Below, piece by piece: positions 26,166 through 59,877 of a stretch of DNA of 64,000 bases (positions are counted from its first letter, which is position 1; every line of letters begins with the position of its first letter). Source of the DNA: Zygnema cylindricum (Eukaryota; Streptophyta; Zygnematophyceae; Zygnematales; Zygnemataceae); the NCBI GenBank assembly GCA_037447655.1, contig JBBHKE010000913.1:149632-213631 (forward strand). The letters are read 5' to 3'. Position numbers and translations under genes: made by a program. A model generated the notes under the pieces. The model ran no database searches, was not told the origin of the DNA, and saw nothing but the letters and a program-made list of their open reading frames with translations.

Positions 26166-26449
26166 ATTCGCAAAGGAACTTGCTCCCTTGATTGTCGTAT
26201 CCTTCATTGCATGCGCATGTAGGTGATACTCCACTCGTGTCATTGGAGCAGATACCGCCTCCCCCGCAAGGTCCTCCTACTTGGGTCGCATTGCAAAACG
26301 CGTCACAATCGCTTTTACTTCGTTGATATGTGGAATTGCAAATGGATGGGAGGTTTGAGCCAAACAGGCAATTGGCACTCAACTCTTCACAGTTTGGGCG
26401 CTCATTGCCTTCGATAATTGGCCCGGTGAGGTAATTGCTTGAAACATCA
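26166..26449 (-). CDS. Terminal LRR plus EGF-like cysteine-rich exon of the LRR gene
   Basis: The exon starts after AG at 26,450 with one base that completes a codon, the same phase as every LRR exon in the array. It reads DVSSNYLTGPIIEGNERPNC, a capping half-repeat, then ELSANCLFGSNLPSIC and a cysteine cluster CDAFC ... GGPCGGGGICSN ... CACNEGYDNQGSKFLC typical of an EGF-like module. I place the end at GCGAAT|GTATGT (26,166, phase 1); without splicing the frame runs to a stop at 26,122. This is an extracellular domain. No transmembrane or kinase exon is visible downstream, so the product could be secreted, or further exons are unrecognised. Confidence 0.65.
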
Positions 26450-29254
26450 CTTCACATATGGTCCACCCTCGTGAAACAAAAATAAGTTAGTATTCCATAA
26501 AACACTTCTTAAAAATGGAAAAGTTTATAAAGGCATGAACTTTGATACATAAACAACAAATTATTGAAAGGTGGTGTACAAAAAACTGCTCATATCATAG
26601 AGAAGAACATGAAATCTAGGCTTTGCTTTTGAAGTACGTGTCTTCTAACCAAGAAGTATAACTCAAGATGTGCTTGATAAACATACATATCCACTACAGA
26701 TGAAATACACATACTCTAGTGAGACTAATTAATGCATAAGATCATTGTAGTGGATCTATATATAGTATGTAGCTGAAATTATTGACATTATGTGGACATT
26801 CTTGATATATGTCGCTTATATAAATATCCTAACTCTTGTGATGTACCTCTAGAAATGTTAAGACCTAAATAGTAAAATTAATATCGTTTCTATCTAAGTT
26901 TTATGTTGTATTTAATTTTATTGCTTATTTAGTTATTCGTTCTGTATGATATGCTCACATTTTTTAGACATTTTTTTATTCGTACATTTTATAAATGTCT
27001 ATATATATTTTATTTTCTGGGTATTGATTATTATTACACTGTCATTTATTATTACTTATTATTAATTTATATTAACATTTAATTTAATGTTATTTATAAT
27101 GTTTTTGTCAGCTATTTTTTTTTTTTTTCGGTTTTTTACAGATTCCTCCGCTTTTTTCTACTCTCTATATTTGTTTTAAATTTTTCATTTGATGTTTAAA
27201 AAAAAATATCGATTATTCAAATTATCTACCATTATTGCAAAATTATAACTATCATTACTATTATTATTACCATTATTGTTATTTGTAATATTGTTAGATC
27301 ATTAGCAGTATTGTTTTAGTGTTATTATTATAATTATAGCTATTATTATTAATAAAAGTATTATTGTTACTATTATTGTTATGACTGTGATTTTTATATT
27401 ATTACATTTTATAATTTTTATTTTTTATTTTTTTTCTACTTATTGATTACTTTAATTTTTGTTTGCTAACAGTTACTATCATTACATCATAATCTTGGTT
27501 AGTAAAATATTTGATTTATGATTTTTCTACTGTCCACATCCACCTTTTACTGTGCAAAGTTATTCTAGGCTTGAATTCTTCATTGCTGAGAATCTCACAT
27601 TAAAGCTCCCTAAGCCACCTGCCTGAATAGGCACTTTCGCCTACATCTCTTGTCCTCTATATCAGAGACAGACCTTAAAACTTGGAACAGACCAAGCTCC
27701 GATGCACAATAATCAACTTGCAAATTCTTAGTCCAGATAGAAAAATACACCGAAAAAAACAAAGTTTATAATATGGTTTCCTGACTTAATTAACAAACAA
27801 AATACAATAGTTGTGCTTATTTGACCAAGTGGAAAACTGTACTTTCATCCTAACAGACTCTACTATTGACAAGCCACCAGTCACCGATTCTAATTTACAT
27901 TACTTCCTAGACACAAAACGCAGTATTTATTACATGGAAACATTGATTATCCTTTACGGTCGGTGAAATTATTCTTGAGATTGTAACTGACACATAATCT
28001 CATTACCCGACAATGTTGTCACATAACTGTGGTACCGTTCACAAATCATTGCAACTATTTCTTTAGAAGGTCTAACATCACAAGGAAAATACAACTTGTA
28101 CAGCTATTAGAACCTTAAATATTGTTGACAAAAAAAAAATATGCTTTTGTTCCCTTCTCATTACAAATTAAGATGTTTTTTTTAAGGATCTATATTGTTT
28201 TACTAAAAAAAAAGATTTAGGTGAAAAGCTGATCTTCGCCGAGTTTTTTGATTTTCTTGCCGATGACTTTCATTTTTTGATTTTGTCTCCTTTCGCCCCT
28301 GCGGTTTTGATTTTTATCTGATTTTCTGACCATTATTTTTTTTGACATTTCTCACTTAATTTCTATCGGTCTCTGTCACTCGGTATCTTTTTCCCTCTCT
28401 ATCTCTCACATACTCTCTCCCTATCTCTCGCTTTTTGTCATTATCATTATGATTAATATGATTTTTGTTGGTAATACCGTTATAAGTACTATGACTAATT
28501 TTATTGTAACTAAAACTATAATTATTTTTATAATCATTGTCATTTTTTTTTATTCATTATTTGCTATTGCTATTATTACTGATAACACTTATTGTAATTT
28601 GATATAATCATCTCAATAGAATTTTGTTTCTAACAAAATATTTGGATCATGACTCTACTACTGTCCCACATCCACCTTTGCAGTGCAAATTATCAGTTTG
28701 GGGTTTTTTTTTTCAAAAGCAAATATTTGAAATTGTTGAAGTTTTACTTGAAGGACTTGATCGAGTTCTATATGCTTTCAACCGGAAAGCATAAAACAAT
28801 AATTATTTAAATAAAGATCCAAAATGCAAAAAAAGGAATTGCCAAAAGAAAAAAAACTAAAAAAGTTCTTTTAGGAATTCAACACTAAAAAATATCCTTA
28901 CCCCATAACACAAAATTTTCCATATTATTCAAAAAAATAAAAAAATAAGAAAACTTTTAAAACAAAACCTAATATATATCCTCTACCTACAAATCTGTCC
29001 CTTCACCCCCGTACCCCCAAAATTAATCTCTCAACAGATCATTTACAGATATATCTATACCCTATCAAAGTGAACCTCTTCCCTAATCTCTTTTCCTTCC
29101 ATGTGTTATTCCCTTTCAAATGACCCAAAGATAAAATAGGAAAACAAATTGCAACAGAATGGTTACCCCAGTCCAAAATGTGATATTGTTTTTTACAAAA
29201 ACAATTTAGAGTATATTTCGATGCACAAGATAGCTATAATGTCTCATGTCTTAC
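26450..29254 (-). other. LRR-gene intron, AT-rich
   Basis: Dominated by ATT-type low-complexity DNA (26,900-27,500 and 28,430-28,620). No gene and no further LRR unit seen. Confidence 0.6.
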
Positions 29255-29326
29255 ATCCATACGAGGGATATCATTTGACTGATGGACGATGGAATGCTTC
29301 CACTCAACTGGTTGCCATTTAGATAT
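29255..29326 (-). CDS. LRR exon, last full repeat
   Basis: 72 nt between GGTGTCACAG and GTAAGACAT. Opens YLNGNQLSGS, then IPSSISQMISL, and closes VW plus the first two bases of an Ile codon completed by the terminal exon, giving I-DVSSNYLTG. G-to-S and L-to-M changes in the IGQL segment set it apart. Confidence 0.85.
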
Positions 29327-29769
29327 CTGTGACACCAAACGTTCACACCCCACCAACACCCACACACTCTCCCCCCCGAGTGCCTTTTAATCAATATGCG
29401 ATATAAACTTATACACTTAAAAGACATTAAGAGTAGGTTCTTAAAAAATACATACGAATGGTTTTTATCCGCCATCACTCTTAAAAAAAAGCTTACGTTT
29501 ATAACGTGGAATAGGATTTCTGTTTTCACTGGTAGATTTGAACTAAGATTTCATTTGTTTGCACATACGCCTCTCTCTCTGCATACCACTCCTACCCCTC
29601 TATCTGGTAATTCATAGTTTCTATAACTTACATTTCGATGTTTATAGTAACATTTGCTAATAAAGAAAATCTCCAATATTTTAAAATATAATTAAATGTA
29701 TTGAGTTTGAATATAAAAGGCCATGAGATGTAAAAAGGTATTAAAGTTAGCGTTTAACCCAGACAACAA

Positions 29770-30935
29770 TATAGTAAGATAAAGAGCGATGCTAGTAGCT
29801 AAGGAGGGTAGAAACTATGAGGAAACCTTTTCACATATAGTAATATTTCACGCACTGAGACTTTTTCTAAGCATAATCGCAAGGGAAGACATGGAGATAC
29901 ATGAGAAGGGTGTAAAACAAATCCCAATAATCAAAGGTGGTTCAAGTAAAAGGGAAGGAACATCTAATATGCAAGCTAAGAAATCACTCTCTGGATTGGA
30001 GCAAGAACCCAAGCATGGAATTTGAAGTTAGATTTGTTCATTAAATCATTGGGCTATACTAACAAAGCTCAGATCATTGTGTATTTTTTTATTTTGTGAA
30101 AGGGGAAATGTCATCTACGTTGTTGTAGACGTTTATTTGCTTATTGCCAGTAAGACTAAACTCAAAATTCAGGAACAAAAGTTGCTCGTAACGAGTTTGA
30201 ATTGAAAACATAATACATGTGAAGTATGCAATAAGAAACAAAATCAGAGAAAAAAATAATCAAACCCACACAAAAAGAACAAAGAAGAACCATGTTCGCA
30301 AAATTTGGGTTTTTTCAGGAAAACACTACATTGCAGGTGATAGGGAAGAAACAAAACCGAGAAGAATTTTTTTTTGTGCTACTGAAATGAGGAACTAGGG
30401 TGGAGAATCAGTTCAAGATGAAAATACTTCACACTTAAGTGGTAGCAAGTCTTTAATAGTTTATAAATGGTACTAGACTAGATACAGGTGTAACCATTTT
30501 TGTTCTCAATAGAGTTTGCAAAATCCAAGAAAATAATTGGGAAGTGACTAAAAGACTAAAGCGGTATTTGAAAGGAACTCGTGAGTTCTAGCTACACTTG
30601 GGAGGATTGGAGGTGAATATCACTTTGTAGGGTGACGCCATTTACGGGGTCAATATGACTCCAAAGTTTCCCTCCGGATATATTCTAAAATTTTCGAAAG
30701 GAGGATGTTGTTGGAGCAACAAGCTTAAAAAACCACAGCTCAGTCTACGATAGAATTAAAATGTATGGCAATGAGTTCATCGGTCAAAGAAGTCATCCAA
30801 GTCTAAGCATTTTTACAACAGTTTGGGACGAATGAAAATTGTTTCACAAATCCTCATTTATGACAACTTAGCAGTTTTAGTATTAGATGCAAACTCCAGA
30901 TACAGAAATTTAAGAGTAAGCACATAGAGATAAGA
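29770..30935 (+). pseudogene. Ty1/copia RT-RNase H relic in an LRR-gene intron
   Basis: LVAKEGRNYEETFSHIVIF and REDMEIHEKGVKQ match copia RT. After 30,025 the frame breaks but LFIKSLGYTNKAQ follows. RNase H pieces TKRLKRYLKGTREF (30,550), FPSGYILKFSKGGCCWSNK (30,670) and ILIYDNLAVLVLDANSRYRN (30,850) come in correct order. It lies antisense to the LRR gene. No LTR was recognised. Confidence 0.75.
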
Positions 30936-33321
30936 AATGCTTTGTCCTTCAAAACATCTAAAATAGGTACTTGAAAGTGGTTCCCTTACCATGCTCTTAT
31001 ATGGTTGCAAATATGATGACAAAGCCATTACCACAACATGAGTTAAGTTTTTCTACATGAGAGAGCCGACTAATGAAAGGCTGAAAGTTAGGACTTAAAA
31101 AAAAGAAAGAATATTGAAAATACTTCGTATCTATCAGAAATAAAGTTAGTTGTGAATCTGGGAGTAAATTAGGACTTAAGAATGTTCCTAAGTCCAAAAT
31201 TTAACTATTGGTTGTAATAAGTGTGATAGTGTAGCACAGTAAAATACACTAACATAAAAGGTGTACTCTGATATGTACTCAAAAACTTGAGTTCTACGGT
31301 AGAACGATTGTGTACGGAACAATTTGAAGAGTGACACCTGGCGTGATCTTTGGCTGCGTGGATGTTATCAGGCACTAACATGGATTCTATAACTGACGAA
31401 ACGACAACGAACATTAGATAACAAACATGCGGCCAAATATTTTTCACATGGAGGACACAATTTTTGCCGTTGATTATTTTCAGGATCATAATGATGCTGA
31501 AAATTTGTCGTGGTGTGGAGCCGAGTATCGGTGACCAACTCTAAATATCGGTTCAATATTGGTTAATAATGTGTAAATTGTTGAGTGATGATTCAGGTGG
31601 ATCAATGGGATTGGTAGGACGTCCACTAACACCTCTATTGCATCGTCATCTGATTTGTTCTCCTTTGATCAGTTAGCAGTTCAGTAAAAAACTTGTGAGT
31701 ATAAAACTCACATATCTATTGAAATCGAACACTACCAGTCTGTATCTTCTCTACTTTGACTTAAAGACTCCTATTGTGCGATATCTCCTTGCTTTTTTCA
31801 TTGTTCGTTCTTTGATTTTGCAAGTTGTTAGAAGAGCATGGCAGCTTGGATAATAACAGTTTTCAACCTCTAACAAGTGAATGTCCTTGAGAATCATTGG
31901 ACAAAGACTGCCTAATTTTGCCTGTAAGATTCTCTAGAATGTAGAATGGAGAATACAGAGGAAGCTTATTAACAATACCAATATAAGTAGTACCAATAAG
32001 TCGATTATTTTGACCGTTTATTATTATTATTTATTACTTATTGTCAATTCTTATGATTTTGTGAAATCATTTTTATTATAGGTAAATTATCAGCATGGGT
32101 AAATATTTCTATGTATACCAATGTTTACAAGTAATAATTAATATTACTTATATTCTTATTGCTCATTATAACTACAAATGCTTTTCGTTATTATTTTTAT
32201 TGATTGTTTATATTATCAGCTACCACGAGTATTATTTTTCTTGTTACTCTCAGTATCACTTATTATTGTTATCTATTCTTATGATCGTCCTATTTTCCTT
32301 AAAAGCACAAAAGAACTCTTACCCTAAATATTCTCTATCCCTCCCTGCCCGCTACTCCCTCTGCACCCGTCCTTCCCTCCTTGCCTCTCTCTCCCTCACT
32401 ATGCACGACCAATATCTGGCCTTGAAAACCCCCCAAAACCCCCCAAAAACACCCTTTTTCCACTATACAAAAAAACACTCAAAAAACACTCCCTCCAGCC
32501 TTTTTCCTCTCCTTGCCTTTCACCCCTTAGGAGTGCCGGTATATTCCTCCGTCTCAATGGGCCCTGTCTAGCCTAAATTGCTACATCTTTTCCTCATTTG
32601 ACCATCATTTCGTATGATCCATCATAAAAATTATTGGTAACAATAATAAATAGAGCTAACAATAGTCTTATTGACAATCATTACAAAAAAAAAGTTATCA
32701 GTTATATTTAGTTACCATTACTGAGACTTATTACTACAAGTATAGCTTATTTTTTAAGCAGTTTAAAAGTATCTATTACGATAACTACGAACTATTTTTA
32801 GGAATTTTCATTATTATTAATAATGTTATTTCACATCGTTAAACACTATTATTGGTTTATTTTTACTAGTATTAGTTCGTTAATTGTTCTTATTCCAACA
32901 ACCCCATTCAGCTTCTAAAAGCCATATACAAATTCCAAAGTAAACCTTAAAAACCTTTTTAAAGAAACACACACAAAAATCCTCCCTCCACACCGTGCCC
33001 TTAACCTCCCTCTAACTTTCATCGGAACACCAAAGCCCCCCGTCTCCATAGGCCCTGTCAAACCTCTATCCTTAACCCCTCCCATAGAAAAACCTTTGTT
33101 TTTCCTTATATTATTATGAAATATCATTACAACTATTATGATCAACGGTATAAGGTATAATTTAGGTTCGTAAAGTTTATTGTTTAAGTATCAGTAATAA
33201 TGATTTCCCTCCCTTACTTCGCATACAATATTCATTTGCAATGTATTAAAAACATTTTTGAGCCATACCAATTTAGAGGACATGTTTTCATGCAACATAG
33301 CCATAGTGCGATGTGTCTTAC

Positions 33322-33390
33322 AAGGTCGAGAGGGACAATTGACCAATGAATGATGGAATGCTTCCAAAAAACTGGTTGTCACTTAGATCT
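33322..33390 (-). CDS. LRR exon, one codon short (69 nt)
   Basis: Opens DLSDNQFFGSIPSFIGQL, then SLST; one residue of the usual LTSL is missing, so frame and phase are kept. Acceptor GGTGTTACAG, donor GTAAGACAC. Confidence 0.8.
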
Positions 33391-33469
33391 CTGTAACACC
33401 AAACATCACACCCAACCGACATAACCCACCAAGCGCACAATGTAATTCTTCCCCAAAGACAATATCCAT

Positions 33470-33930
33470 CATTTCCCCTCCTCCCCTATAATATAGTTCT
33501 CACCTCCCTCTATTTCGCATTTTCTCTCTCAATCTGCTTGAGGGACTCCCACTGGCCTTTAAGCCCTTTATTTTTTTTAAATACTCTAGATAAAGAAACT
33601 TTTATTCCTTTTCCCGTTCCTTATTTCTCCCTCTCATCACTCCTCTCCCATTTCCTACTTCCATTACTCTCGTCTCATCTTAGTCTCCATCACCGTTTCT
33701 ATCTCTCTCCATCTCTCCGTCTCTCTGTTTCTTACGCGCTTTCCTGATCCTTCTTCCTTTTCCTCTTTCTCCTTTTCCACCACCGTTTCTCTCTCCCTCT
33801 CTCCCTTCCTCTCACTCTGTCTTACCCTCACCTTCTTCCTCGCCCTTTTCCTCTCACTGTTTTATCTTTTTTTGGCTCTCTCCCCCTCTCCTCTCCTCTC
33901 TCCCTCTCTCTCTTTTACTCGTTTATTATT
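33470..33930. repeat. Pyrimidine-rich intronic tract
   Basis: CTCCCTCTCTC-type low complexity on the plus strand (purine-rich in the LRR transcript sense). Open frames here are compositional. Confidence 0.8.
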
Positions 33931-34219
33931 CTTATTAGCCTCAACAACCTAAGTCTAGCATTTCAATCCTATATAAAACTAAAAAAAAAACCTTATAAAC
34001 CGTTCTAAAAAAACACGCACATTAACCCTCCCTCCACACCGTCCCCCCAACATCCCTCAACCTTTGATTGGAACGCCAAAGCCCTTTGTCTCGATGGTCC
34101 TTGTTAACCCTTCTTCGCTAATCTCTCTCATAGAAAAACCTCTACTATTTTCATACATTATCTGGAAAATTTATAATAACTATTAAGTTCAACATTATAA
34201 GTAATAATTTACATTCATA

Positions 34220-34710
34220 TGTTGTTTTTAAAGCTTTATCCTCAGTAGATAGAGTTGTGAGGGGAGATTTGTACCTTAGAATATTTTTGGTTAAGTTTGG
34301 TGTAATACTTACCTTAAATAGTGTGACAGTGTAGTGGCTACTATAAGAGTATTATGTAGTCACATAGACACGCGTCAACATTTCACACTATGCAGGAAGT
34401 GCAGAATGGTCCTGGACAGATGGCATCTATCGAACGAGTGAATTCGGGAAATCGGGCGGACGGAAAGTGAACCGGGCATCTGGGAATATAAATGTGAAAG
34501 AAAAATACAAGACGTTGATTACGATCAGATTGACGGCTGGAAATTGAGTGGGGACCACGGATGACGAGGTTCTTTGTAAGCACCCCAGATTTTCGTACAA
34601 AATATACCACAACGAGTTGGACGTATCTACAATTGCTGACTAAGCAAGCAACATTTGGTGTACGACATCAATTGGTCAATACCTGATAGAACAAGGTTTT
34701 GTAGTGTACA
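34220..34710 (+). repeat. Copia 5' LTR (truncated at its 3' side)
   Basis: Aligns with 36,174-36,660 over its length with scattered substitutions, both starting TGTTGTTTT and both containing CACATAGACACGC and GATTGACGGCTGGAAATTG. Ends abruptly at TTTTGTAGTGTA where RT sequence begins. Confidence 0.8.
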
Positions 34711-36158
34711 AAGCGAAACTAAACCCAGATGGCACCATTGAAAGGTACAAAGCTAGACTTGTAGCCAAAGGCTACAATCAGAAAGAAGGAATTGAATTTG
34801 AGGAGACCTTCTCTCCAGTGGTAAGGTTTCCAAGTGTCAGAATTTTGCTCAGTTTAGCTGCTATTGAACACATGGAAGTGCATCAAATGGACATTAAGAC
34901 AACTCTCCTTTATATGCAGCAACCAGAAATGTATGTAGAGAAAGGAAAAGAAAAGTTAGTCTGTAAATTGATGAAATCTTTGTATGGGCTGAAACAAGCC
35001 CTAGGCAATGGAACCTTAAGTTAGATGAGTTCCTCACTAAACTAGGCTTTAAACGAATTAGTTCAAATCATTCAGTGTATGTTCTGCAAGGGGAGGATGG
35101 AATACTGTACATTGCTGTCAATGTAGATGATCTACTGCTAATCAGCAAATCTATGAATGAAATAAATCGGATTAAAAGAGCTGTAAAATCCAGGTTTGAG
35201 ATGAAAGACATTGGTGAAGCCAAATACATCTTAGGGATACAAGTAGAGAGAGATAGAAGTAAAAGATAGATCATGCTAACTCAGAAAGAGGCTATAAGTT
35301 CCATGCTTGAAAAATTTGATATGAATGAAGCTAAAGGATGTGTTACTCCCATGGAATACAAACTAAAATTAGGAGTTGATTATGAATCAGGCATTCTAGT
35401 TGATAAGATTCTAGATTCAAGGGAGGAGGATTTCATGGCCTCAAAACCATACACGCAGGTAGGTTGGTAGCCTTATTTATTTTATGAACTGTACGAGATC
35501 TGATATAGCAGAAACACAAGTCTTCAGAATCCGAAAAAGGCAGATTGGGAATCTGCAAAAAGAGTAATAAGGTATCTTGCATGGACTCGGAATCTTAAAC
35601 CGGTCCTTAGAGGTGGAGAAGTCAAGCTAAAAACCTGGAGCGATGCGAGTTATGGAGACATGCCCAGCAGGAAATCAACCACTGGATTCATTCTAAAAAT
35701 TGGAAATGGAACTTGCTGTTAGAGGAGTAAGCTTCACAAAGTTACCACCCAATCAAAACATGGAGTCTGAATACATGGCAGCAAGTTTTGCCCTCAAATA
35801 ACTCTTGTGGGAAAAGGCACAGTTTTGCCCTCAAATAACTCTTGTGGGAAAAGGCACTCCTGTGGGCAAAGGGCACTTTTGCATGAATTGGGACACATGC
35901 AATCTGGTCCTCAAGTCATCTAGTGTGACAACCAGGCAACAATCGCCATAGCCTCCAACCCGAGCCGCCACTTTAAGAGTAAGCACAAGGATGTCCGATT
36001 GCATTTTGTCCGTGAAAAGGTGCTTGCAAATGTCATTAAATTATGTTATTTGCAGGATGAAAAAATGGTTGCAGATATGCTAACTAAAGCTCTACCTGCA
36101 CCTGAATTACAGTTGAGAGGCTGTTGGACTAAGTGAGTAACTGAGTCTAAAGCTTTAG
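34711..36158 (+). pseudogene. Ty1/copia RT and RNase H pseudogene
   Basis: RT blocks in order: [61 protein letters not shown], then after a frame break YIAVNVDDLLLISKSMNE with the catalytic VDD, and KYILGIQVERD. A stop at 35,267 and further breaks follow. RNase H is recognisable by SDASYGDMPSRKSTTGF near 35,640, HFVREKVLANVIKLCYL near 36,005 and LTKALPAPEL near 36,085. The direct repeat at 35,787-35,860 adds damage. Cannot make active enzyme. Confidence 0.88.
35787..35860 (+). repeat. 37-bp tandem duplication in the RNase H region
   Basis: AGTTTTGCCCTCAAATAACT and the following CTTGTGGGAAAAGGCAC occur twice in direct succession. Confidence 0.85.
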
Positions 36159-36660
36159 GGGAGTGTTGTTTTCAAAGCTTTATCCTTAGTAGATACAATT
36201 GTGAGGGGAGATTTGTAAATTATAATATTTTTGGTTAAGTTTTGTGTAATACTTACCTTAAATAGTGTGACAGTGTAGTGGTTACTCTAAGAGTATTTTG
36301 TACGGTCACATAGACACGCTTCAACATTTCAGACTATGCACGAAGTGCAGAATGGTCCTGGATACATGGCATCTATCGGACGAGTGAATTCGAGAAATCG
36401 GGCGGACGGAAAGTGAACCTAATATCTGGGAATATAAATGTGAAAGATAGATACCAGACGTTGATTACGATCAGATTGACGGCTGGAAATTGAGTGGGGA
36501 CCACGGATGACGAGGTGCTTCGTAAGCACCCTAGATATTCGTATAAATTATACCACAGCGAGTTAGACGTATCTACAGTTGCTGACTAAGCAAGGAACAT
36601 TTGGTGTACGACATCAATTTGTAAATACTTGATAGAACAGGATTTTGTAGCGTAGTGAAT
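36159..36660 (+). repeat. Copia polypurine tract and second LTR
   Basis: AAAGCTTTAGGGGAG precedes TGTTGTTTTCAAAGC at 36,174. The LTR matches the left one to about 36,660 and probably continues beyond it. Confidence 0.75.
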
Positions 36661-37402: not shown

Positions 37403-37474
37403 AAGAAAATTAGAGATTCCAGTTGACTGATATATGATGGAATGTTTCCACGCAGCTGGTTGTTGAATAGCCTT
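37403..37474 (-). CDS. LRR exon
   Basis: 72 nt. Opens RLFNNQLRGNIPSYISQLES and closes LIF. One of the more diverged units (R, N, Y and E replace usual residues), yet fully open, with acceptor TGTCACAG and donor GTAAGACAC. Confidence 0.83.
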
Positions 37475-39454: not shown

Positions 39455-39526
39455 AAAATCACGAGGGATGTGAGTTGACCGATGGACGCTGGAATGCTTC
39501 CACTCAACTGGTTGTAAGATAGATCT
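39455..39526 (-). CDS. LRR exon
   Basis: 72 nt. Opens DLSYNQLSGSIPASIGQLTS and closes LVI. Near the array consensus; donor GTAAGACACG. Confidence 0.85.
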
Positions 39527-42900: not shown

Positions 42901-43915
42901 TCCCCCCGTCCTCCACCTCCCCTTGCCCTTCTCTTCCTTTCTATGAAGGACCTCTATCTTGCCATAAAAAATCAGATAAAACCCCCAAAAAACCCCTTTT
43001 CTCACAATGTAAAAAAACACTTTCGAAAAACCCTCCCTTTTGCCTTTTTCCCTTCCCTGTCTTTGGCCCTATAAGATTCACGCTATAAGTCACGCTATAG
43101 CCCTTGATTGTAATGAGCCATGTCTAGTCTCCATTGCTACACCTCTTCCCCTAAAAATCCCTCCATCGTTTCAGTATTATCTATTATTGAAATTATCGGT
43201 AACAAGAATAAAAAGAGCTATTAATAGTCTTGGTTTTTCATTTATTTTTTCATCAGTTATTTTTAGTTAAAATTACTGCTGCCTCTTACTACAGGTATAA
43301 TCTTTATCATAAGTAGTTTGATAGTAACTGCTACGGATACTAAGAACTATTTTTAGTAATTATCATTATTAGTAATAATGCAATGTCACATCGTTAAACA
43401 CTATTATTGGTTTATATTTACTAGTATTAGTATCGTTAATTGTTTTTATCCTTAAAGGTCCCAACAACTCCCGTCTAGCCTTTAAAAAAAACCATTTTAA
43501 AAAAACATGCACAAAAACCCTCCATCCAAACCGTCCTCCCAACCTCCCTCTATCTTTCATCGGAACTCCAAATCCCCTGTCTCGATGGGCCTTGTCAAGC
43601 CTCTATTGCTAACCTCTCCCATAGAAAAACCTTTTTTTTTCCTTATATTATCATGAAATATTATTATAACTATTAAAATCAACATTATAAGCCACAATTT
43701 ATATTCATAAAGTGGGTTATTTTTAGTATTGATAATAATGATTTCTGTCCTTTACTTCACATAGAATATTTATAATCAATGTATGAAAAACATTCCGGCG
43801 CAATATCAATTTAGAGCACAATGTATGCGAAACACAGCCATAGTGCCATGTGCATCGCAATATCAATTTAGAGCACAATGTATGCGAAACAGAGCTATAG
43901 TGCCATGTGCCTTAC
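39956..43915 (-). other. LRR-gene intron: AT-rich low complexity and duplicated modules
   Basis: 40,100-41,150 is ATT-rich. 41,985-42,060 and 43,070-43,140 carry the recurrent CCTTCCGTCTCAATGGGCC-type module. 42,480-43,900 is a paralogue of 31,900-33,310. No exon between. Confidence 0.65.
42100..42430. repeat. Degenerate AAACCCT/AAAACCTA tract
   Basis: A-rich sequence with dispersed AAACCTAC, AAAACCCT and CCATAAAAA words. Similar tracts occur at 49,670-50,390, 53,100-53,500 and 55,630-56,215. Confidence 0.6.
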
Positions 43916-43987
43916 AAGGTATACAGGGATTTTAGTTGACCGATGGACGATGGAATGCTGCCACTCAACTGGTTTTGAGATAGATAT
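43916..43987 (-). CDS. LRR exon
   Basis: 72 nt. Opens YLSQNQLSGSIPSSIGQLKS and closes LYT. The flanking intron is repeated just left of it (43,792-43,870), where CAATATCAATTTAGAGCACA occurs twice. Confidence 0.85.
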
Positions 43988-44640: not shown

Positions 44641-44712
44641 AATTCTACGAGGGATGTGAGTTGACCAATGGACGATGGAATCTTTCCACTCAACTGGTTT
44701 ATAGATAGATAT
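44641..44712 (-). CDS. LRR exon
   Basis: 72 nt. Opens YLSINQLSGKIPSSIGQLTS and closes LVE. Acceptor GGTGTCACAG, donor GTAAGACAC. Has no counterpart in the paralogous 60-kb segment. Confidence 0.85.
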
Positions 44713-45360: not shown

Positions 45361-45365
45361 TTGGA

Positions 45366-47265: not shown

Positions 47266-47269
47266 TATG

Positions 47270-49082: not shown

Positions 49083-49154
49083 AATTCTTTGAGGAATGTC
49101 ATTTGACTAAAGAAATTTGGAATGCTTCCATTAAACCGGTTGCCAAATAGATTT
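49083..49154 (-). CDS. LRR exon, diverged
   Basis: 72 nt. Opens NLFGNRFNGSIPNFFSQMTF and closes LKE; the most diverged open unit. Acceptor TTTCATAG, donor GTAAGATAC. Confidence 0.8.
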
Positions 49155-49669
49155 CTATGAAACGAATATTCACACCCTCCCCACTCCTCTCCACCCACAA
49201 GTGTCGGTTAGTAGCCAGTATAGATCAGACTTAAAAACTTGTGTGTAAATTCTTGCAAAAAATCACAGGTTTCTATCACAATTACACTATCACGCTATAA
49301 ACATTTTCTTTTGAATCACACCAGGAAAAACAAAAATCTGAAAAAAAATCTCCTTTTTCTCCTGCTCCTCTCTCTACTTTTCCTCTCCCTCCCATTTTTT
49401 CCATCTCTCTCATTGCTTTGACGACCCTCTTCTAGTATTTAAAACCCAAAATAAAACCCTTAACATTTCCTAAAATAATCATCCTCATAACTCCCCTTCG
49501 ACCTTTCCTCTCTCCTTTCCAATACCCTTTATGAGCACACCAAATCCTTCTGTCTCAACGGGCCTTTGTTTGGCCTCTATCGCTATACCTCACTCCATAC
49601 AGCATTTTCTCTCCATTTTTATTACTTTTACCATCATAAGTATTGACAATGTTATTTTCAATTAAAAAT

Positions 49670-50390
49670 AGAAATCTACAAACCGTATAAATCATAAAAC
49701 CATAGAATCCCAAAAACCCTTGAAAGCTCTAAAAGCACAAACAATCCGAAAAAAATTATAAGCCTTGAAAACTCTAAAACCACAATGCGTTAAAACATTT
49801 ACCCTCTTATACCCTCAGAACCCTTAAAGCCCTAAAAAGACTACAAACCTTATAAACTTGAGAAACCATTAAAAATTATAAAAATCAGAAATTGAAATAA
49901 CGTTAAACACTTAAAATACCCACAAAGTCCTAATAATCGTAACAATTGTAAAAACCACAAAAACTATAAAAATTATTAACCCGAAATACCCTCCAAACAA
50001 AGAAAAGCCTTAATACCCTAAAATTCTTAAAACATAATTTGATCTTAAAAACCTTAAAAAATATGAAAACCCTTTGAACTCGAAAAAATTGCAAGACTTA
50101 ACTATGTCTAAAACCCCTTAGAACCCCTGAAACTTTGGAAACCTAAAAAGCTTTACAAAATCTAAACACCGTAAAACCCTCAAACCCACAAAAGACATTT
50201 AGGGTACAAAAACCATAAAAATCCTAAAAACGCTAAAAATCACATAAATGAAAAAACCCGGTAAAAGCTTGAAACTCTAAAAACCTTCAAACCCTAAAAA
50301 CTTTCTAAACCATAAAACCATAAAATTGACAAACCAGAAAAATCCTAAAAACCATAAAAAATAAAACCCTCAAAACCCTCCCTCCCTATA
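49670..50390. repeat. Degenerate AAACCCTAAAA tract
   Basis: About 700 bp of A/C-rich words such as AAACCCTAAAAAC, CCTTAAAACC and ACCATAAAAC, loosely like plant telomere repeat CCCTAAA but without regular period. Confidence 0.6.
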
Positions 50391-50713
50391 ACCGAGAAGC
50401 ATGCCATAGTCTTGTGTCTCTAAGTGTTGTTTTACCTTCATCATTTTATGTTTCCCTTTAAGAAACCCCTTTTTTCCCTCTTTCAATATATATAGGTATA
50501 AATATTATACTTAATTCTATTAATAACTATAATCCTTAATTATTATTTGAATAATTATCATTTTAAATAATTAGATAATTAGTATTTCTTGTTATTATCT
50601 TCAATAATTTCGCGCTCTTGCTTCACATAAGATATTTCTTTTAAAACAATTAAGCCATACCAAGTAGAAAACACCTATGATGTGCAACATTGGCATAGTG
50701 TCTTGTATCTCAC

Positions 50714-50785
50714 AATTTTCGGAGGGATGTGAGTTGACCGATGGACAATGGAATGCTTCCACTCAACTGGTTTAGAGATAGATCC
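50714..50785 (-). CDS. LRR exon
   Basis: 72 nt. Opens DLSLNQLSGSIPLSIGQLTS and closes LRK. Acceptor TGTCAAAG and donor GTGAGATAC are variants. Only 200 bp separate it from the next unit. Confidence 0.85.
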
Positions 50786-50985
50786 CTTTGACACCAAACA
50801 TTCACACCCCAACATCTCCCCTCCTCCCAAAATTGTCTCCTAGTTAGTATGCAATACGAGTTATAAACTAAAATAATTGAGTTTGTTCTTTGAACAAACA
50901 AATCTAAAGGGTTTGTAACCACCATCACAATTTAGAAAAAATGTTAAATATCGTTCAATATTCCTTACTCAACAATGTTCCTTAC

Positions 50986-51057
50986 AAGGTAGAAAGGTTT
51001 GTCAGTTGACCGATGGACGAAGGAATACTTCCACTCAACCCGTTGTCATGTAGATCC
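50986..51057 (-). CDS. LRR exon
   Basis: 72 nt. Opens DLHDNGLSGSIPSSIGQLTN and closes LST. Its acceptor-side intron (TTTGACACCAAACATTCACA and onward, about 47 bases) is identical to that of the 50,714 unit, but its exon resembles the 51,853 unit. Confidence 0.85.
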
Positions 51058-51220
51058 CTTTGACACCAAACATTCACACCCCAACATCTCCCCTCCTCCC
51101 AAAAGCGTCTTATAGTTAATATGCGGTACTAGCTACATGCTAAAACGATGAGTTGCTTCTTCGACAAAAAAATCTAAAAGGTTTGTACCGACCATCACAA
51201 TTGAGAAAAAATGATAATTA

Positions 51221-51802
51221 CACCGTCGATCGTATTTAGCGTGTTGAACACTAATTCGGCGCCCCTAAATTTTGAGGGTTTTACCTAAAATAGGGTAAAG
51301 GATACTAATTTTTCTTGTACGCTAATTACGAGATGAACAATTAGTGTACACCATTTTAATTTATGTATATTTTTATTAGTGTGGAATACGGAACGTGTCG
51401 GTTCGTATAGAAATGTACTTTTTTATCATACTAGTACGGATATTTTAATAAAATCTCTGCTATCACACGAAAAACTGCCCTGTGAATTAAATAATTTCAT
51501 ATTTGTACCTGTTTTAGTGTACATTTGTTTGTCGCGTATTGTCTACACCGTAAAAAACCGAAATTAGAGTTAGGAATTAATTAGAGTGAAAGTATGCGAC
51601 AGTACGAATTGTCAGAATCTGTACTTTTACCTATATTAACGTAGATATCCTCTCGACAAATCAGCTGTACCCATATTGGCGTACGTTGAAAAATTAGTGT
51701 ATAACTTTTTTTTCGAAATTTTTCTAAGTCAAAATTAGTGTACATGACACTAAATTATTCTACACACTAATAATTTCTACACGCTAAATACGATCGACGG
51801 TG
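51221..51802. mobile_element. CACCG-family MITE inside an LRR-gene intron, 582 bp
   Basis: Perfect 24-bp inverted ends starting CACCGTCGATCGTATTTAG, with TA on both sides (51,219-51,220 and 51,803-51,804). The paralogous intron at 50,935-50,970 lacks it, so the insertion is younger than that exon duplication. No coding capacity. Confidence 0.85.
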
Positions 51803-51852
51803 TAGTTTTCAATATTCATTCCTCAACAAAGCCATAGTGTCATATGTCTTAC

Positions 51853-51924
51853 AAGGTAAAAAGGTTTGTCAATTGACCGATGGACGATGGAATGCTTCCA
51901 ATCAAATGGTTGTCATTTATTTTT
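51853..51924 (-). CDS. LRR exon
   Basis: 72 nt. Opens KINDNHLIGSIPSSIGQLTN and closes LFT. Acceptor GGTGTCACAG, donor GTAAGACAT. Confidence 0.84.
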
Positions 51925-53099
51925 CTGTGACACCAAACATTCCAACGCATTAACACCCACCCTCTATCTCCTTGTCACCCCTGGTACAAAGCCATACACG
52001 GAAAAAAAACGTTCGAGTGTGAATTCTTAATAATTACATCTAAAGGGCTTAATAAGAATCCAGTCCCACCACCACTTATTGCTCTGCACCACAATACTTG
52101 AATTTCCATTATTGATATTGATTTAGAATACAAAAATATAAACGTGTAAAAATGTTCATAATTTGCGCTAAGAAGATGCAACTTAAAACATAAAAGCCTC
52201 AAATATAGGCGAAAACAAATTTAAAGATTATGTGGATTTCAATCTCCAGTTTTTCATATACATTTCTTTAGTCATTATCATTATTACTCGTTTTTATAAT
52301 TATTCATTTTTATTATTATTTTCATTGAATCAATAAATTTATCAACATTATTAATACTTATTATTTGTCATTATGATTATACTTCTTCTAGCAATGAGCA
52401 TTAATCCCTTTTAGAAACCTCTCCTCTAAAGCCCATTTCTTCCCCACGTCCCTCTCTCCCTGCCTTTCCCTCTCTCTCCCTCTTTGGCTCAACGACCCCC
52501 AACTGTACTTTAAAACCCCCATAAAACTCTATGACACCCTCAAATACCATTCCTTCACCCCCGTCCCCTTCCCTCCCTCTAACCCCAAAGAGCATACGAT
52601 AACTTTAAATCTCATGGTCCGTCAAGCCTCCATTACAACAGGCCTCCCCTCAAAAATCTTTTTTTACATTATGAATAATTATAAATTATTTTCTTAAATG
52701 TGATTATTTTTACAAGTAATTAGCTTTAGCAGTAATTATTAGTAATAGTAACAATATAGGCTCCAATCATCGTTACATTCGTAATAAATATTAGACAATA
52801 GATATGAAATATTAGATGTTATTGCTCATCGCCATTATTGTTCCTATTAATAATTAGTATTTCTTATTATTATTGATCATTAATCCTTGTACTACTATTT
52901 TTGCTACTATTATAATTATTGTTATTGTTATTGTTATTATTATTACTACTATTATAATCGATTGAAATTATTATGAATTAACCCTTATTATTTTATATTA
53001 TTTATTATATTTTGTTTTTATTGAATATTATATAAATTTATTATTATTCTATTAGCTTTTATAGTTGTTTATTTATTAATGGCTATAATTTATGTCTAC

Positions 53100-53500
53100 G
53101 AAAAAATACTATAAATTCTAAGATCTTAATCCACGTATAAAAATTTAAACTCTATAAGATTTAACACACTATAAAATTCAGAAACGATAAAAAACCTCAA
53201 GACCTTCGAACTCTTAGAAGCTAAAAAAATTGAATATCCTCATGCGTTAATAACCGTAAAAATTGTCGAAATATAAGCAATCAAATACCCAAAAACCTAC
53301 GAACCCAGAAAACCATAATATCCCTAAGAAAAAAAAATCATAAAACCATAAAAAATACAAAAACATTTTAAACCCTGAAAACACTAAAACCCTAAAAACA
53401 CTAAAAGACTTTCGAACCATAGAAATCCAAAAAACTAACAAAAAAAAAATCCTTAAAAACCATAAAAAATATATATAAAATTCTCGAAAACCTCTCTCCA
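53100..53500. repeat. Degenerate AAACCCTAAAA tract
   Basis: A/C-rich words as in the other three tracts; open frames over it are compositional. Confidence 0.55.
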
Positions 53501-53777
53501 CGTGTTTCCCCTTTTCTCTACACCATAGCCTTCCGTTTTTGTAAACATTGCCTAGCCGCCATCATTGTATGTCGCTATCTGATAAACCCTCCCTTTCCTC
53601 TCAAAATTATGAACTTATATTGCTAATTTTGGAATGTTACTTATTATTTTAAAAAACATTATTATTAGTTATTGCTTCACATAAAGCGACTTACTCCAAA
53701 TGATTAAAAAAAATCTTTAGTCATACAAGTTAAGAGCACGCATTTGATGCACAAAGGTACAGTGTGACGTGTCCTAC

Positions 53778-53849
53778 AAGGATTGAAGGGATGTCAGCTG
53801 CCAGATGGACGATGGAATGCTTCCATTGAAAAAATTCTGAGATAGATCT
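53778..53849 (-). CDS. LRR exon
   Basis: 72 nt. Opens DLSQNFFNGSIPSSIWQLTS and closes LQS. G-to-W in SIGQ is unique in the array. Donor GTAGGACAC. Confidence 0.82.
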
Positions 53850-54628
53850 CTGTAACACCAAACATCCACACAGCATCAGCACGCTACTTAGTACTCAGTA
53901 AAGCCTATAATTTTAATAAATGATTGAGTTTAATTCTTAGTTAATACATTTGTTGCATTTTTATCCACCATCACACTTCAAAAAAAATGATGACTACTAC
54001 ATTTGATATCATGTTTTTGCATTGTTAGGTTGAAACTTTGCGCACACAATATCCACACAAAACCATATTTGCTTGCATATCTCTCTACCCATATGGCCAC
54101 CCCCCTTTTTTTCCTCGCAATGAAAAAAAAAGTGAAATATAACATTCAAAATTAAAAAAAACAGGAAATAAACAGATTTACGACATCCATTGTTGACACA
54201 CCACAAGGCTTTTTCATTCTTATATATGATTATTTGTTACTTGATATTTTCTTTTGTTTTTACTAAATTTACTATTGCTTTTTATTTAGTTATATTTATT
54301 CATAACCATTATCATGTTTTATAATACCTTTTTGTTTACTTTTTAACTGTTATTTTTATCTATTGTTTATTATTTACTATTTTTTTATATTTATTAGCAA
54401 TCGTTTGTTAATCATTCTTTTTTTATTGACTATTATTTATTATTATTTATTATTTTTATATTTTTATATTATTTATTTCTTTTATATTATTTATTATAAT
54501 TTTTTACTTTTACGATTAATATAATTATTTAATCAATATTTATTTGTTATGATTATTTTGCTAGTATTCATTAATATTTATTGTTGATTTTTATTTGCTC
54601 AACATTGTTTTAGTTCTTTGTGGCTTAC

Positions 54629-54675
54629 AATTTGTTGGAGGGATGTTAGTCGATTAATTGTCGCAAAATAGATAT
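54629..54675 (-). pseudogene. Relic LRR exon, deleted
   Basis: AATTTGTTGGAGGGATGTTAG matches the 3' part of an LRR exon and keeps a donor-like GTAAGCC. The middle of the unit is deleted and no acceptor remains. Confidence 0.65.
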
Positions 54676-55025
54676 AGATAATGGGTTAAACTCTCATTTA
54701 TAATAAATTATTAGTTACGCATTATATCATTTGTTGTTTGTGTTTTTTTGTCATCACTTGTTATTGCTATTACCCTTCATGCTTCTAACTTTTACAATTT
54801 TTATTCCGACTGCTTATTGTTACGTATAACTTGTTTTTTATTGTACCAATCATAAAATTCAAATTTTTATTTCTAAATAATTTCCAATACTATTTATAAG
54901 CTATTGTTATATGTTTATTTTTATAAGAATATACAACAATATACTATTTATCTACTATCCATCATAATTTACATGGTAATCATGTGACTTAATGTGCAAC
55001 AAAGCCATGAGATCATGTGTCTTAC

Positions 55026-55130
55026 AAGTCTTGGAGGGATGTGAGTTGACCGATGGATGATGGAATGCTGCCACTCATGCCATATAGATCATAATGACTC
55101 ACTCCATCCGGTGAGGTATGAGATAGACTC
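55026..55130 (-). CDS. LRR exon with 33-nt in-frame insertion (105 nt)
   Basis: Opens SLSHTSPDGVSHYDLYG, then MSGSIPSSIGQLTSLQD. The extra 33 nt sit where the usual N-Q-L of the repeat would be and keep the frame open. Acceptor GGTGTCCCAG, donor GTAAGACAC. Either a real insertion loop or an exon in early decay. Confidence 0.65.
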
Positions 55131-55629
55131 CTGGGACACCAAACGTTCACACCCCATCAACACCCACCCCCCAAAGTGTTCCCCAGTTAGTGAATGTTAC
55201 AACTTCCGACTAAAAAACTTGAGTGAGGAAACTATTAGCAGTCGCATGTAAAGGTTTTGTATCCATTGTCACACTTCAGAGAAATTGACAGAGAAAACAA
55301 TTAACAGTTAATATTAAATCACGCCAAAAAAAAAAACCACCCCTTTCCTCCTGCTCCTCTCTCGCTTTCTCTCCATTTTCCTCCCTTTCTCTCCCTCTCA
55401 GCCTCAATGACCCTCACCTGGGCATGAAAACCTAAAAACCCTTCAAAACCCTTAAAAAAATCATTTTTCCACATTTACCCTCTTCCTCCGCTACCCTTAT
55501 ATTAGCTCGCCATATTCCTCCGTATCAACGAGCCTCACGTAGCCACCATTTTTATACCTCTACCCTAAAAAATCTCTCTTATCCCGCTTTAATATTATGA
55601 GTTATCATTATTATCATCGTCATTATCTT

Positions 55630-56215
55630 TAATTTCAAAATCTAAAAACCAACAAAACCCTAAAGAGCCTAAAACCACACATTCCTACAAATATTAAAAA
55701 CTCTAAAATCTTGAAAACTCTACTTTAAAACCATAAAATCAAAAACCTTGAAAATCCTATGAACACTTAAAAACCTTAGAAGCGTCAAAACGCTAATTTA
55801 AAAGCCCTCAAAAAGTTAGAACACTTGAAAACTCTAAGTACCTTAATTTCCCTATCGTAAAAACAAACCCATAACATCCATATAACATAAAAACCTAAAA
55901 ACCTCTACAAATCCTATAAACCGTACGAACCGTAAAACCCACAAAACAACAAAAAACCTTGAAAACGTACAATCCTCGAGATGAAAATTCAAAAATCATA
56001 AAAGCTTTAAAGACCTGAAAAGATCTAAAAACCCGTTGGAACTTTTAAAACTCAAAAAATCCTACAGTTTTTACAAATCCAAAAAACCCTAAAACCCTCA
56101 AAACCATAAAAAAACCTTAAAATTATAGAAACCCTACTCTAAAAGCCTTTAAACTTGAAAACCTTCGAAACCATAAAAACCATAAAAAAACAAGAACCTT
56201 AGAAACCCTCCCTCT
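55630..56215. repeat. Degenerate AAACCCTAAAA tract
   Basis: Words such as CCCTAAAACCCTCAAAACC are closest here to plant telomere repeat, still irregular. Confidence 0.55.
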
Positions 56216-57206
56216 CTATACTTGATGAGCACGCCATAGCCAACGCCTTAGTGGGCGTTGTATGGCCTCCATTGCTATACGTCTCTCATTAAAAAAAAAA
56301 AAAAAAATCCCATCTTATAACAATGAATGATCATTTGATTATTTTATGTATTATTAAAATTGTATAATTTTTAATTGCAATTGTAATAATCATTAGAAAT
56401 TGGTAAAATTTAGAATCGTTTCACTTCACATAAAACAAATAATTTGCACAGCGGAAGCTTTAAAAAATAGCATTCACAAAAACTCACAACAAATACATCG
56501 GCCAAATGTAATTTTTATTAAGCCGAAAGTTTTTTTTCTTTAACAAACTCTCACTCTCACTGTGTTTACTCATGCACATCTCTTCCACTCACTCAAATAC
56601 TTACTCTCACTTCTCCCACTTCTTCCTTGCTCTTTGCACTGTAAACTCCGATGCATTTCTTTTGTCAAATGCGTAAAATTTTCCAACTCAGAATTCTCTT
56701 TAAATAAGAGCTCAAAGGAAGACTTAGTTTGCACGACTTCTTCCACTAACTTCACACTGACTACACTCACACTGACCGGATACTTGGGCGCCAAAACAAA
56801 AACTGGGCGTCTGATAAAATATCAGTGCGCAAAGCTTAATTGTGCGCTGGACAAAAACATTGTACCACAGTCTACGCACTAAACGATTACACGGCATACA
56901 ATACGAAAAGTCACAAAGTATTTTTGTCGTAACTAACACTCAAACTAAACAAAAAGTAACAAAAAATTAACCATCAACGTAAACTGAACACAAATTTAAT
57001 CCAAAACAAACTGAACAAAAACGTAATTTCGACCAATCCGCCGATTTGCCCAATATCATAACACTAATTATTTATTATTATCAACTAATTTTTTCTTTTG
57101 CTTCACATAGAATATTTCTTTTGAAATCGTCAAAAAAAAATTTAAGCCAAACATATTTGGAGCCCACTTTTGACATACAACATAACCATAGTGTCATTTG
57201 TCTTAC
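56216..57206 (-). other. LRR-gene intron without recognised exon
   Basis: Contains one copy of the ATGGCCTCCATTGCTATAC module at 56,260 and AT-rich DNA. The 106-codon frame at 56,562-56,882 resembles nothing I know. Confidence 0.5.
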
Positions 57207-57278
57207 AAGTATTGGAGGGATGTGAGTTGACCGATGGACGATGGAATGCTTCCATTGAACTGGTTTTCAAAAAGATCT
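57207..57278 (-). CDS. LRR exon
   Basis: 72 nt. Opens DLFENQFNGSIPSSIGQLTS and closes LQY. Acceptor GGTGTCACAG, donor GTAAGACAA. A clear example of the array unit. Confidence 0.87.
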
Positions 57279-58851
57279 CTGTGACACCGAATATTAGCAC
57301 CCCACCAATACGAGCCCTCGAAAGATATTAACACTTCACCAATACCAACCTCCAAAAGTGTATCCTTTTCACTGTGGTACAAAGTCATACCATAAACAAA
57401 AAGTTGATTACAAATTTTTAGTGATACATCTATATAATTTTTTTCCACTATCTTGAATCCATCTCCTACCCCACATTCCCTTTTTTTCTCCGTCATGTCA
57501 TTTACTTTTCCATCACTAGCATTTCTTTAAATTTATAACAAAAACATGTAGCACATTAAACGATCAATTTTACTCTCCAAGTTTTTCTTGTGAAAGGAAG
57601 GAAAAAAACATCTGAGCTGGTTACCTATTTATAAATCCACAGCTCTCAGATGATCGTCCCCTCTATAGGCGCATAAGTCAATAAAAATGAGCAATCAATG
57701 AAAATCGCAATTTTTTTGAGTTCTCGTAAGTCATGCAAAAAACCTTGCGCAAGAAAACAAATGATATGAAAGAAACCATCATATCGAAAAACCAAATTTG
57801 AGCATTTTTTTGTGGTTTTATTTCCGCTTTAACTCTATTTCTAAATCTTTGCTTGATAATAACTATAACACCACTAAGTATGTTTACCAATCGTACAATA
57901 TAAAAAATAATAATTTCTCATTCGACATGGTTTTATGTGTTTTTTTGTAAATTTTCCACTAAGATCTACTTTTTTTTGTATTTATTTCACAATTGCAAAT
58001 TGGTATATCAGGTTCTCGCGATTTTCATTGAAATTAAGCAATATTAGCTTTTCAACGAGGTATTGTATGTATTATTTAGATATGGATTATGATTTGTAGT
58101 TGGGGCACATAACACGCCTATCTTTACAATACATAATTTTTCTTATCATTTGCTTCACAATTTTTTATGTTATGAAAGATATCAGTATCATTTCTTATTG
58201 TCAATAAACATTTTAAACTAATGAATCATTTTTATTTATTACCCCTACTATTCTTATTATAGTAAATTTTATTAAAACTACTATAACGATTTGCCCCTCA
58301 AGAGCACCCCATATATCTTCTACCTTAAAAATACTCCCCCTAAAATTTCCAACTTGCTTTGATAACCCCCCTCTAGCTTTCTAATTAACCACAAAACTAC
58401 CAGAATAAATGATAGGGGTCGTCTGAAATAACACGCACAAAAACACTACATACCGACACTCCCCCCACACTCCCCCAACACTCCCCCAACACTCCCCCAA
58501 CACTCCCCCCACCCTCACATCCTTCCTAACCCCCAAAAGCACGCCGTAGCCCTTGTCTAGACAGGCCCCCTCAACCCTCCATCGTTAAAGCCCCCATTTT
58601 GAAAAAAATTCCTTTTCTCCATTAAATATTATAAATGTTATTGTAATCTTTATTATCAAGTAGCTATTACTATTACAAATTATTTCTTACATTTATATTT
58701 TATATTAGTTTGAAAATTTATCATTGAAAAAATTTATTTCCCTCCTTTGATTCACACAAAACATTAGTTTTCAAACAAAAAAAAAGGTGAGCCGTACCAC
58801 CTCAGAGCACACTTTTAATACGCAACATGGTCATATTGCCACGTGTCTTAC

Positions 58852-58923
58852 AAGATTTGGAGGGATGTGAGTTGACCGATGGACGATGGAATGCTGCCAT
58901 TCAACTGGTTGTAAGATAGATCA
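58852..58923 (-). CDS. LRR exon
   Basis: 72 nt. Opens DLSYNQLNGSIPSSIGQLTS and closes LQI. Acceptor CGTCACAG, donor GTAAGACAC. Confidence 0.86.
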
Positions 58924-59805
58924 CTGTGACGTTGCACGCTCGGCAATCATCCACCCGAAGTGTTTTCTAGTTAGTATGTGGTACAAGTTATACATTTAAA
59001 AAAAAATAAGTTCAAATTCTTCATACATAAAAGTTGTGGGTCTTTATCCACCATCAACATTAAATTTTATGTAACTACTGTTTTAGTTAACAGAATTGAG
59101 CTTTGCGCAACAAAATCCATTCAAAAACACCTTTGTTTAAATTCCCCCCCCCACACCCCCTAGCACCCCCTTCCGCCGATGAAAAAATCACAATAATATA
59201 TAGAAAATACAACCTAAATTCAAATTTACAACTTCGATTGTTTGCACATCATACACCTTTTGTCACAATCCTCCACCCCTTTTTTCCTTCAGGCCAAAAA
59301 TAAAATAATTTGCAAAACAAAAAAAATAAACGGAAAAGAACACACGTGATAAATGTGATGTTTCCACACCATATTTATTTCCATCACATTCCCCTCCCCC
59401 ATCTTCCTTCATCATATCATTTAATTTTCCGTTATTAATATTTATAAGACAAAATAAAAAAACAAACAAAAAAATCAGCTATACAAACGTAATGCATCAT
59501 AACAGAAAAAAAACCTTCAAACATCAAAAGGTTTTCGTTTCCTATTCTACCAATTACAAATTAAGAAATTCCCTCGAACACACACAACCAATGAGTATAA
59601 GTAGTTATTATTTATAACGAAAAATTAACACATTACTGTTAGGTTAATCCTACTTCCCTCCAAAAACACGCCACTACCCTCCAAAATGATTTCTCTCTTT
59701 TACATTACAAATAATATTTATATTCAATGTATTAAAACATTTTCGCTTAATACTAATTTCGAGCACAATGTACGCGCAACATGGTCGTAGTCCCATGTGT
59801 CTTAC

Positions 59806-59877
59806 AAGGTCTCAAGGGATGTGAGTTGACCGATGGACGATGGAATGCTGCCACTCAACTGGTTGTGAGATAGGGAT
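59806..59877 (-). CDS. LRR exon, most upstream unit in the window
   Basis: 72 nt. Opens SLSHNQLSGSIPSSIGQLTS and closes LET. Acceptor GTGTCACAG, donor GTAAGACAC. To its right, 4.1 kb to the window edge holds no further unit, so the N-terminal exons lie beyond 64,000 or are absent. Confidence 0.86.

Follow-up and report, generated by a model that had tools for sequence, protein, structure and literature searches.

A leucine-rich repeat gene family with arrays of single-repeat exons and an EGF-like closing exon in Zygnema cylindricum

Results

The exon array

We analysed a stretch of 64,000 nucleotides from Zygnema cylindricum (GenBank assembly GCA_037447655.1, contig JBBHKE010000913.1, positions 149,632 to 213,631 of the forward strand), which is called the window below. 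A first-pass annotation of this DNA had reported fifteen exons, each coding for a single leucine-rich repeat (LRR). To judge from the sequence, most of a very large gene, its 3′ part, lies on the minus strand of the window; the gene is putatively receptor-like and one of many paralogues. The contig, of 213,631 bases, ends together with the window at position 64000, and the 5′ part of the gene is therefore missing from it. The features of the gene are the following, in window positions:

59806..59877, minus strand: LRR exon 1, the first within the contig, 72 bp, SLSHNQLSGSIPSSIGQLTSLET
58852..58923, minus strand: LRR exon 2, 72 bp
57207..57278, minus strand: LRR exon 3, 72 bp
55026..55130, minus strand: LRR exon 4, 105 bp, with a 33-bp in-frame insertion, phase 2 kept at both ends
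53778..53849, minus strand: LRR exon 5, 72 bp, donor GTAGG
51853..51924, minus strand: LRR exon 6, 72 bp
50986..51057, minus strand: LRR exon 7, 72 bp, AAG acceptor
50714..50785, minus strand: LRR exon 8, 72 bp, AAG acceptor
49083..49154, minus strand: LRR exon 9, 72 bp, TAG acceptor
44641..44712, minus strand: LRR exon 10, 72 bp
43916..43987, minus strand: LRR exon 11, 72 bp
39455..39526, minus strand: LRR exon 12, 72 bp
37403..37474, minus strand: LRR exon 13, 72 bp
33322..33390, minus strand: LRR exon 14, 69 bp, one codon fewer
29255..29326, minus strand: LRR exon 15, 72 bp
26166..26449, minus strand: closing exon with half an LRR, a cysteine-rich stretch and an EGF-like domain, ends placed by eye
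24851..25226, minus strand: candidate proline-rich exon (SPSPPPPPP...), its putative first base being 25226 after TTTGTAG, in phase 1 as the closing exon requires

A DNA profile seeded with one unit detected the 15 LRR exons in its first pass (E <= 0.002), all of them on the minus strand, a location that the first-pass annotation did not state. Later passes over the window added nothing to the 15 exons at E up to 10. A six-frame protein profile found the same 15 exons and the half repeat of the closing exon, and a weak match of this kind at window position 1206 was judged not to be an LRR exon. Regular-expression LRR scans overlooked the true units, and profiles were used instead; a generic degenerate pattern for LRRs was not informative, with 11+7 places vs 84+85 for its control.

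The exon lengths are 72 bp in thirteen cases, 69 bp in one and 105 bp in one, and all are divisible by 3. AG upstream, GT downstream and phase 2 at both ends were found in 15 of the 15 LRR exons, all of them open, in agreement with the earlier description of interchangeable exons with their own splice signals. The acceptors are CAG in 12 exons, AAG in two and TAG in one, and the introns within the array range from 200 to 4389 bases. Furthermore, no stop arises in any of the 105 forward exon pairs when they are joined (the residue at the junction is Leu in 104 and Phe in one), as the first-pass annotation had expected of every exon combination, and its proposed capacity for a long LRR solenoid is upheld by these open, frame-compatible exons. 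The spliced product matched Pfam LRR_1 with E 6.5e-52, and residues N5, G9, I11, P12, Q17 and L21 were invariant among the thirteen 72-bp exons. The extent of the array is to be corrected in part: within the span 26166..59877 given for it, the fifteen LRR exons occupy 29255-59877, and 26166 marks where the closing LRR/EGF exon ends.

The closing exon and the proline-rich stretch

The closing exon is entered in phase 2 and exits in phase 1 at a GTATGT donor. Its residues include DVSSNYLTGPI and a cysteine-rich, EGF-like stretch. With the closing exon of the window alone, the Pfam EGF model gave a weak match under the model cut-off (E 0.032); among 28 aligned family members, the model matched 18 at E up to 0.1, the best at 8.1e-5. 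The one match of a PDB search with the closing exon alone (E 0.72) was taken as chance.

A proline-rich stretch in sense orientation was present within 1.5 kb downstream of the closing exon at 14 of 30 loci, the window included, and in antisense orientation at none of the 30. Upstream of the closing exon, the corresponding counts were 1 and 5 of 30. In addition, 10 of the 14 downstream stretches start with (F)VV, as which the TTTGTAG acceptor would be read. The proline frame changes near 24.85 kb in the window, and there is a frame shift in another locus, C449, too. The proline-rich exon, its 3′ end included, is therefore given as a candidate only.

From a comparison by eye with C1427, the closest paralogue, 22225-22308 was considered as the exon next to the closing exon, and it was rejected for a stop in the phase directly following the closing exon. 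This stretch, 4 kb past the closing exon, shares 26 of 28 residues with C1427 in one frame, an unusually high conservation. A kinase query found no kinase in the window. Among 146 kinase matches in the genome (134 of 759 candidates scored), inspection by eye showed none that follows a listed closing exon at up to 60 kb and in the same orientation.

Conservation and selection

Mean pairwise identity was 0.74 among the exons. In the introns it was about 0.72 over the 20 bases at each end, 0.45 over the 20 bases further in and then about 0.3, with background reached by 40-60 bases, a drop that is overstated because the intron values are ungapped and indels inflate the fall. At the divergence of the adjoining intron bases (0.209, taken ungapped from the column majority and so an upper estimate), the probability that all 60 AG/GT bases survive was ~8e-7. 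For all thirteen 72-bp exons to stay open at their own distances from the consensus, the probability was ~0.013, counting random substitutions only and leaving out the 69-bp and 105-bp exons. Both values support the earlier argument that open frames kept amid decayed introns point to selection. Exon divergence equal to that of the introns had been named as evidence against that argument; in the one exon pair compared, the closing exons of the window and C1427 were 94.0% identical, and the flanking introns were 87.3% and 89.3% identical. The ratio of nonsynonymous to synonymous substitution (dN/dS) in this pair was 0.69, a value based on 4.8 silent changes and 12.2 replacements and so on counts too low to lean on.

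The most variable residues of the unit are the five x positions of xxLxLxx, a strand that we take to be the concave face of the LRR. Codons 1, 3, 4, 22 and 23, which were picked after viewing the alignment, were compared with the other 18. In 13 exons of the window, the proportion of nonsynonymous differences (pN) was 0.60 at the five codons vs 0.15 elsewhere, and its ratio to that of synonymous differences (pN/pS) was 1.37 vs 0.56 (permutation p 5e-5). In 37 intact 72-bp exons from 15 loci, a set from which exons of other length, broken exons and cut exons were dropped, pN/pS was 1.50 (bootstrap 1.27-1.82) at the five codons vs 0.51 at the other 18. The ratios are pair counts with shared ancestry and not a codon-model test. 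Amino-acid change is in excess at the five codons placed on the concave face.

The gene family

The genome (352.8 Mb in 2689 contigs) holds a large family with the order N-cap, array and closing exon. Beyond what the first-pass annotation described, the array belongs to a gene family having N-cap and EGF-like closing exons. A backbone 32-mer occurred 427 times with up to 3 mismatches, and its control once. All 150 scored candidates for the closing exon, from 467 in all, matched with E 6e-27 or better, on 114 contigs. For the N-cap exon taken from C449, 150 matches were scored among 276 candidates. The order of elements was counted for 71 N-caps, namely those whose contig has a closing exon on the list as well; the remaining 79 were left out. 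The next element was a same-strand closing exon in 48 of the 71; it lay within 60 kb in 47, with a median span of 14.8 kb, against 4 N-caps in a control with strands flipped. Similarly, of 100 listed places of the 32-mer, 73 had a same-strand closing exon within 60 kb downstream, 6 had one only otherwise and 21 had none, in counts based on a partial list of closing exons (150 of the 467 candidates). The 14 pattern matches in viral contigs included no relative.

For instance, C449 has a signal-peptide-like exon and an N-cap (both recognised by eye), LRR exons, the closing exon and a proline-rich stretch, in this order. Its LRR part begins with a 72-bp LRR exon of other sequence (56560-56631), and then ten array exons follow, one of them of 78 bp. 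A signal-peptide-like exon was noticed in C449, and N-caps occur genome-wide; the N-terminal exons of C449 had no counterpart in the window by tblastn. The N-terminal cassette of C449 (signal-peptide-like exon, N-cap and first LRR exon) is present twice, at 53100-53900 and 55930-56700. The two copies are 81% alike over 765 columns, and the upstream copy is broken, as judged by eye.

Changes of the arrays

The number of array exons varies, with 15 in the window, ten in C449 (plus the divergent first exon) and a single one in C1868 within 30 kb upstream of its closing exon. C1427, which is 86.5% identical to the window in a block of 2470 columns surrounding the closing exon, has an extra LRR exon at 30237-30336, where the window has none. 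When the 20+20 flanking intron bases were compared, 12 of 13 window exons (p 0.001) and 6 of 9 C449 exons (p 0.03) had their nearest neighbour within their own gene. By the exon alone, this was the case for 8 of 9 exons in C449 (p 0.0045). In the other loci, 25 of 31 exon matches were intact, and 2 of the remaining 6 were cut by the locus end.

Other features of the window

On the plus strand, exon pieces at 658-3232 gave matches to a plant MED12 (Mediator) sequence (best E 2.6e-12), and no Pfam match was found there. The MED12-like match is the main basis on which the sequence itself points to a probable streptophyte. At 7266-8637 there is a tandem array with a 286-bp unit, 4.8 copies and 98% matches, with four tRNA-Gln(CTG)-like predictions and one tRNA-Ser-like prediction. 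Two copies of a similar open stretch, presumably transposase-like, lie at 9045-9590 and 12993-14091. The first has a BED zinc finger, and 13696-14091, the scanned piece of the second, had no match in Pfam. In an array intron, reverse-transcriptase pieces (RVT_2) at 34359-36604 stand between 300-bp repeats that are 92% alike. In addition, a further non-LRR repeat family occurs in several array introns (32482-34141, 39977, 41995, 43026-43722, 52542, 55512 and 56235) and may mark older, larger duplication units.

Discussion

We consider it probable that each gene codes for one long spliced LRR ectodomain and that gain and loss of exons diversify the repertoire. The LRR domain is written with one repeat to each 72-bp phase-2 exon, and the array is closed by the exon with the half LRR and the EGF-like domain, probably followed by the proline-rich (extensin-like) stretch. 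Most or all of the exons would be spliced together into a long extracellular solenoid, which might bind a ligand such as a pathogen, cell-wall or mating signal. The repertoire would evolve through duplication, loss and divergence of exons, and the phase symmetry of the unit makes gain or loss of an exon by recombination safe for the frame. Alternative splicing could contribute to this but is not required.

Several observations weigh against a single long ectodomain per gene with exon turnover. On the 3′ side, the proline-rich stretch shifts frame in the window and in C449, and the 5′ end of the gene lies off the contig. Neither a kinase nor a membrane span turned up, although no search was aimed at a membrane span, and the receptor function is for this reason something we infer. 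At the level of the family, 23 of the 71 N-caps had no same-strand closing exon as the next element, and 4 of 29 uncut matches in other loci failed the intact-exon test. Furthermore, the nearest neighbour by the exon alone was in the same gene for only 5 of 13 window exons (p 0.43). The mean exon difference was larger within the window (0.259) than between the window and C449 (0.210), with 0.152 within C449, and the difference over the 20 downstream flanking bases was about as large within the window (0.275) as between genes (0.278). By the nearest-neighbour and difference values, amplification within the gene is thus clear for C449, and for the window in the flanks only.

Combinatorial alternative splicing, in which differing subsets of exons in each transcript would give many ectodomains per gene, seems unlikely to us as the main explanation. 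Every forward exon pair joins in frame, and brown-algal ROCO genes with the same 72-bp phase-2 design are reported to have several splice variants (Teng et al. 2024, PMC11378527). A few splice sites are weaker (two AAG acceptors and one GTAGG donor), whereas most are strong and similar to one another. The ends of the introns point both ways. Many introns carry TGACACTA-like bases past the donor and TGGTGTCA-like bases ahead of the acceptor, and the own ends of the 14 introns paired with a mean of -20.4, slightly beyond the shuffles (-18.5, standard deviation 0.8). None of 60 shuffles was as low; in a run of 400, 8 were as low, and 12 when the splice bases were held fixed. However, consensus intron ends were no better than shuffles (-17.9 vs -18.0, fraction 0.49; with splice bases fixed, -19.0 and 0.63), and own introns were no better than other forward pairs, whose mean was -20.7. 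Since the 14 introns are related, the pairing values are not independent. Intron-end pairing as a splicing selector, after the docking idea of Dscam, is equivocal, and alternative exon choice is possible.

It is quite improbable that the array is decaying or dead, with the likeness of its exons due to recent duplication alone and the gene out of use. Such decay would agree with the retroelement in the array intron, the changed frame of the proline-rich stretch, the broken exons in other loci and the absence of the 5′ end from the contig. Nevertheless, the 15 exons are all intact, as are the 60 splice bases, a state of very low probability at the divergence of the flanks, the closing exon is better conserved than its own introns, and the amino-acid changes are concentrated at the concave codons. 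We give hardly any credence to a germline reservoir, in which the exons would be kept chiefly as donors to other genes of the family, by recombination or gene conversion. Hundreds of similar exons are found genome-wide, and 21 of 100 listed exons have none of the 150 listed closing exons (from 467 candidates) within 60 kb, which could be read in this way, but frames and splice sites are kept in situ, where a donor would not need them, and the window array stands in order ahead of its closing exon.

Comparison with known systems

The best solved relatives of the LRR sequence are the plant proteins MIK2, FLS2 and GSO1. Like plant LRR receptor-like proteins and receptor-like kinases, the genes described here have plant-type repeats (LxxNxLxGxIP), with an N-cap exon in the relatives. 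Unlike them, they have an EGF-like closing domain and arrays in which near-identical exons of one repeat each are separated by introns of up to 4.4 kb, and no kinase was found near them. ERECTA-type genes also use 72-bp LRR exons, for which our literature search gave no supporting paper. In leucine-rich repeat extensins (LRX), the LRR domain is followed by cysteine-rich and proline-rich stretches. This is similar to the cysteine-rich and candidate proline-rich stretches after the repeats here, and by LRR sequence the solved relatives include LRX2 (6qxp, E 4.3e-37). However, an EGF-like domain stands in between in our genes, and the LRR array consists of many exons. In arthropod Dscam, tandem homologous exons of the same phase diversify the ectodomain. 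The logic is alike, but each exon here has a length divisible by 3 and any number of them can be joined, and the evidence for docking-selector pairing is equivocal. The literature search, with most subscription journals outside its scope, turned up no such arrays described from plants or streptophyte algae, and this is weak evidence for their absence; within the same scope, there was no report of a ROCO-like exon design on an EGF-type scaffold.

The closest design is that of the brown-algal ROCO genes (LRR-ROC-COR). There, each gene has many 72-bp phase-2 exons with a single LRR, the number of repeats is variable and positive selection is reported at sites of the concave face (Teng et al. 2024, PMC11378527). 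Our genes agree in the exons (13 of 15 are 72 bp, 15 of 15 in phase 2) and in the concentration of change at concave residues (pN/pS 1.50 vs 0.51). They differ from the ROCO GTPase in that the exon after the array is EGF-like, although no search was aimed at ROC, and in that a relative starts with signal-peptide-like and N-cap exons; their lineage is probably green. What was already known from the brown algae is the exon design, and the scaffold, the probable lineage and the family size differ.

We tentatively propose that the family might be a combinatorial receptor repertoire of the green lineage, independent of the brown algae, with hundreds of genes, exon turnover together with alternative exon choice, and many ligand surfaces per gene. 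Its genes would consist of a signal peptide, an N-cap, a variable number of swappable LRR exons, and EGF-like and proline-rich domains. In brown algae, the ROCO design, with one repeat per exon and diversifying concave faces, led to the proposal that the immune repertoire might be combinatorial and even adaptive-like. The presence of this design in the Zygnema genes would make it a convergent solution, given that the lineage is probably unrelated, that the scaffold is different and probably extracellular, and that the gene family is large.

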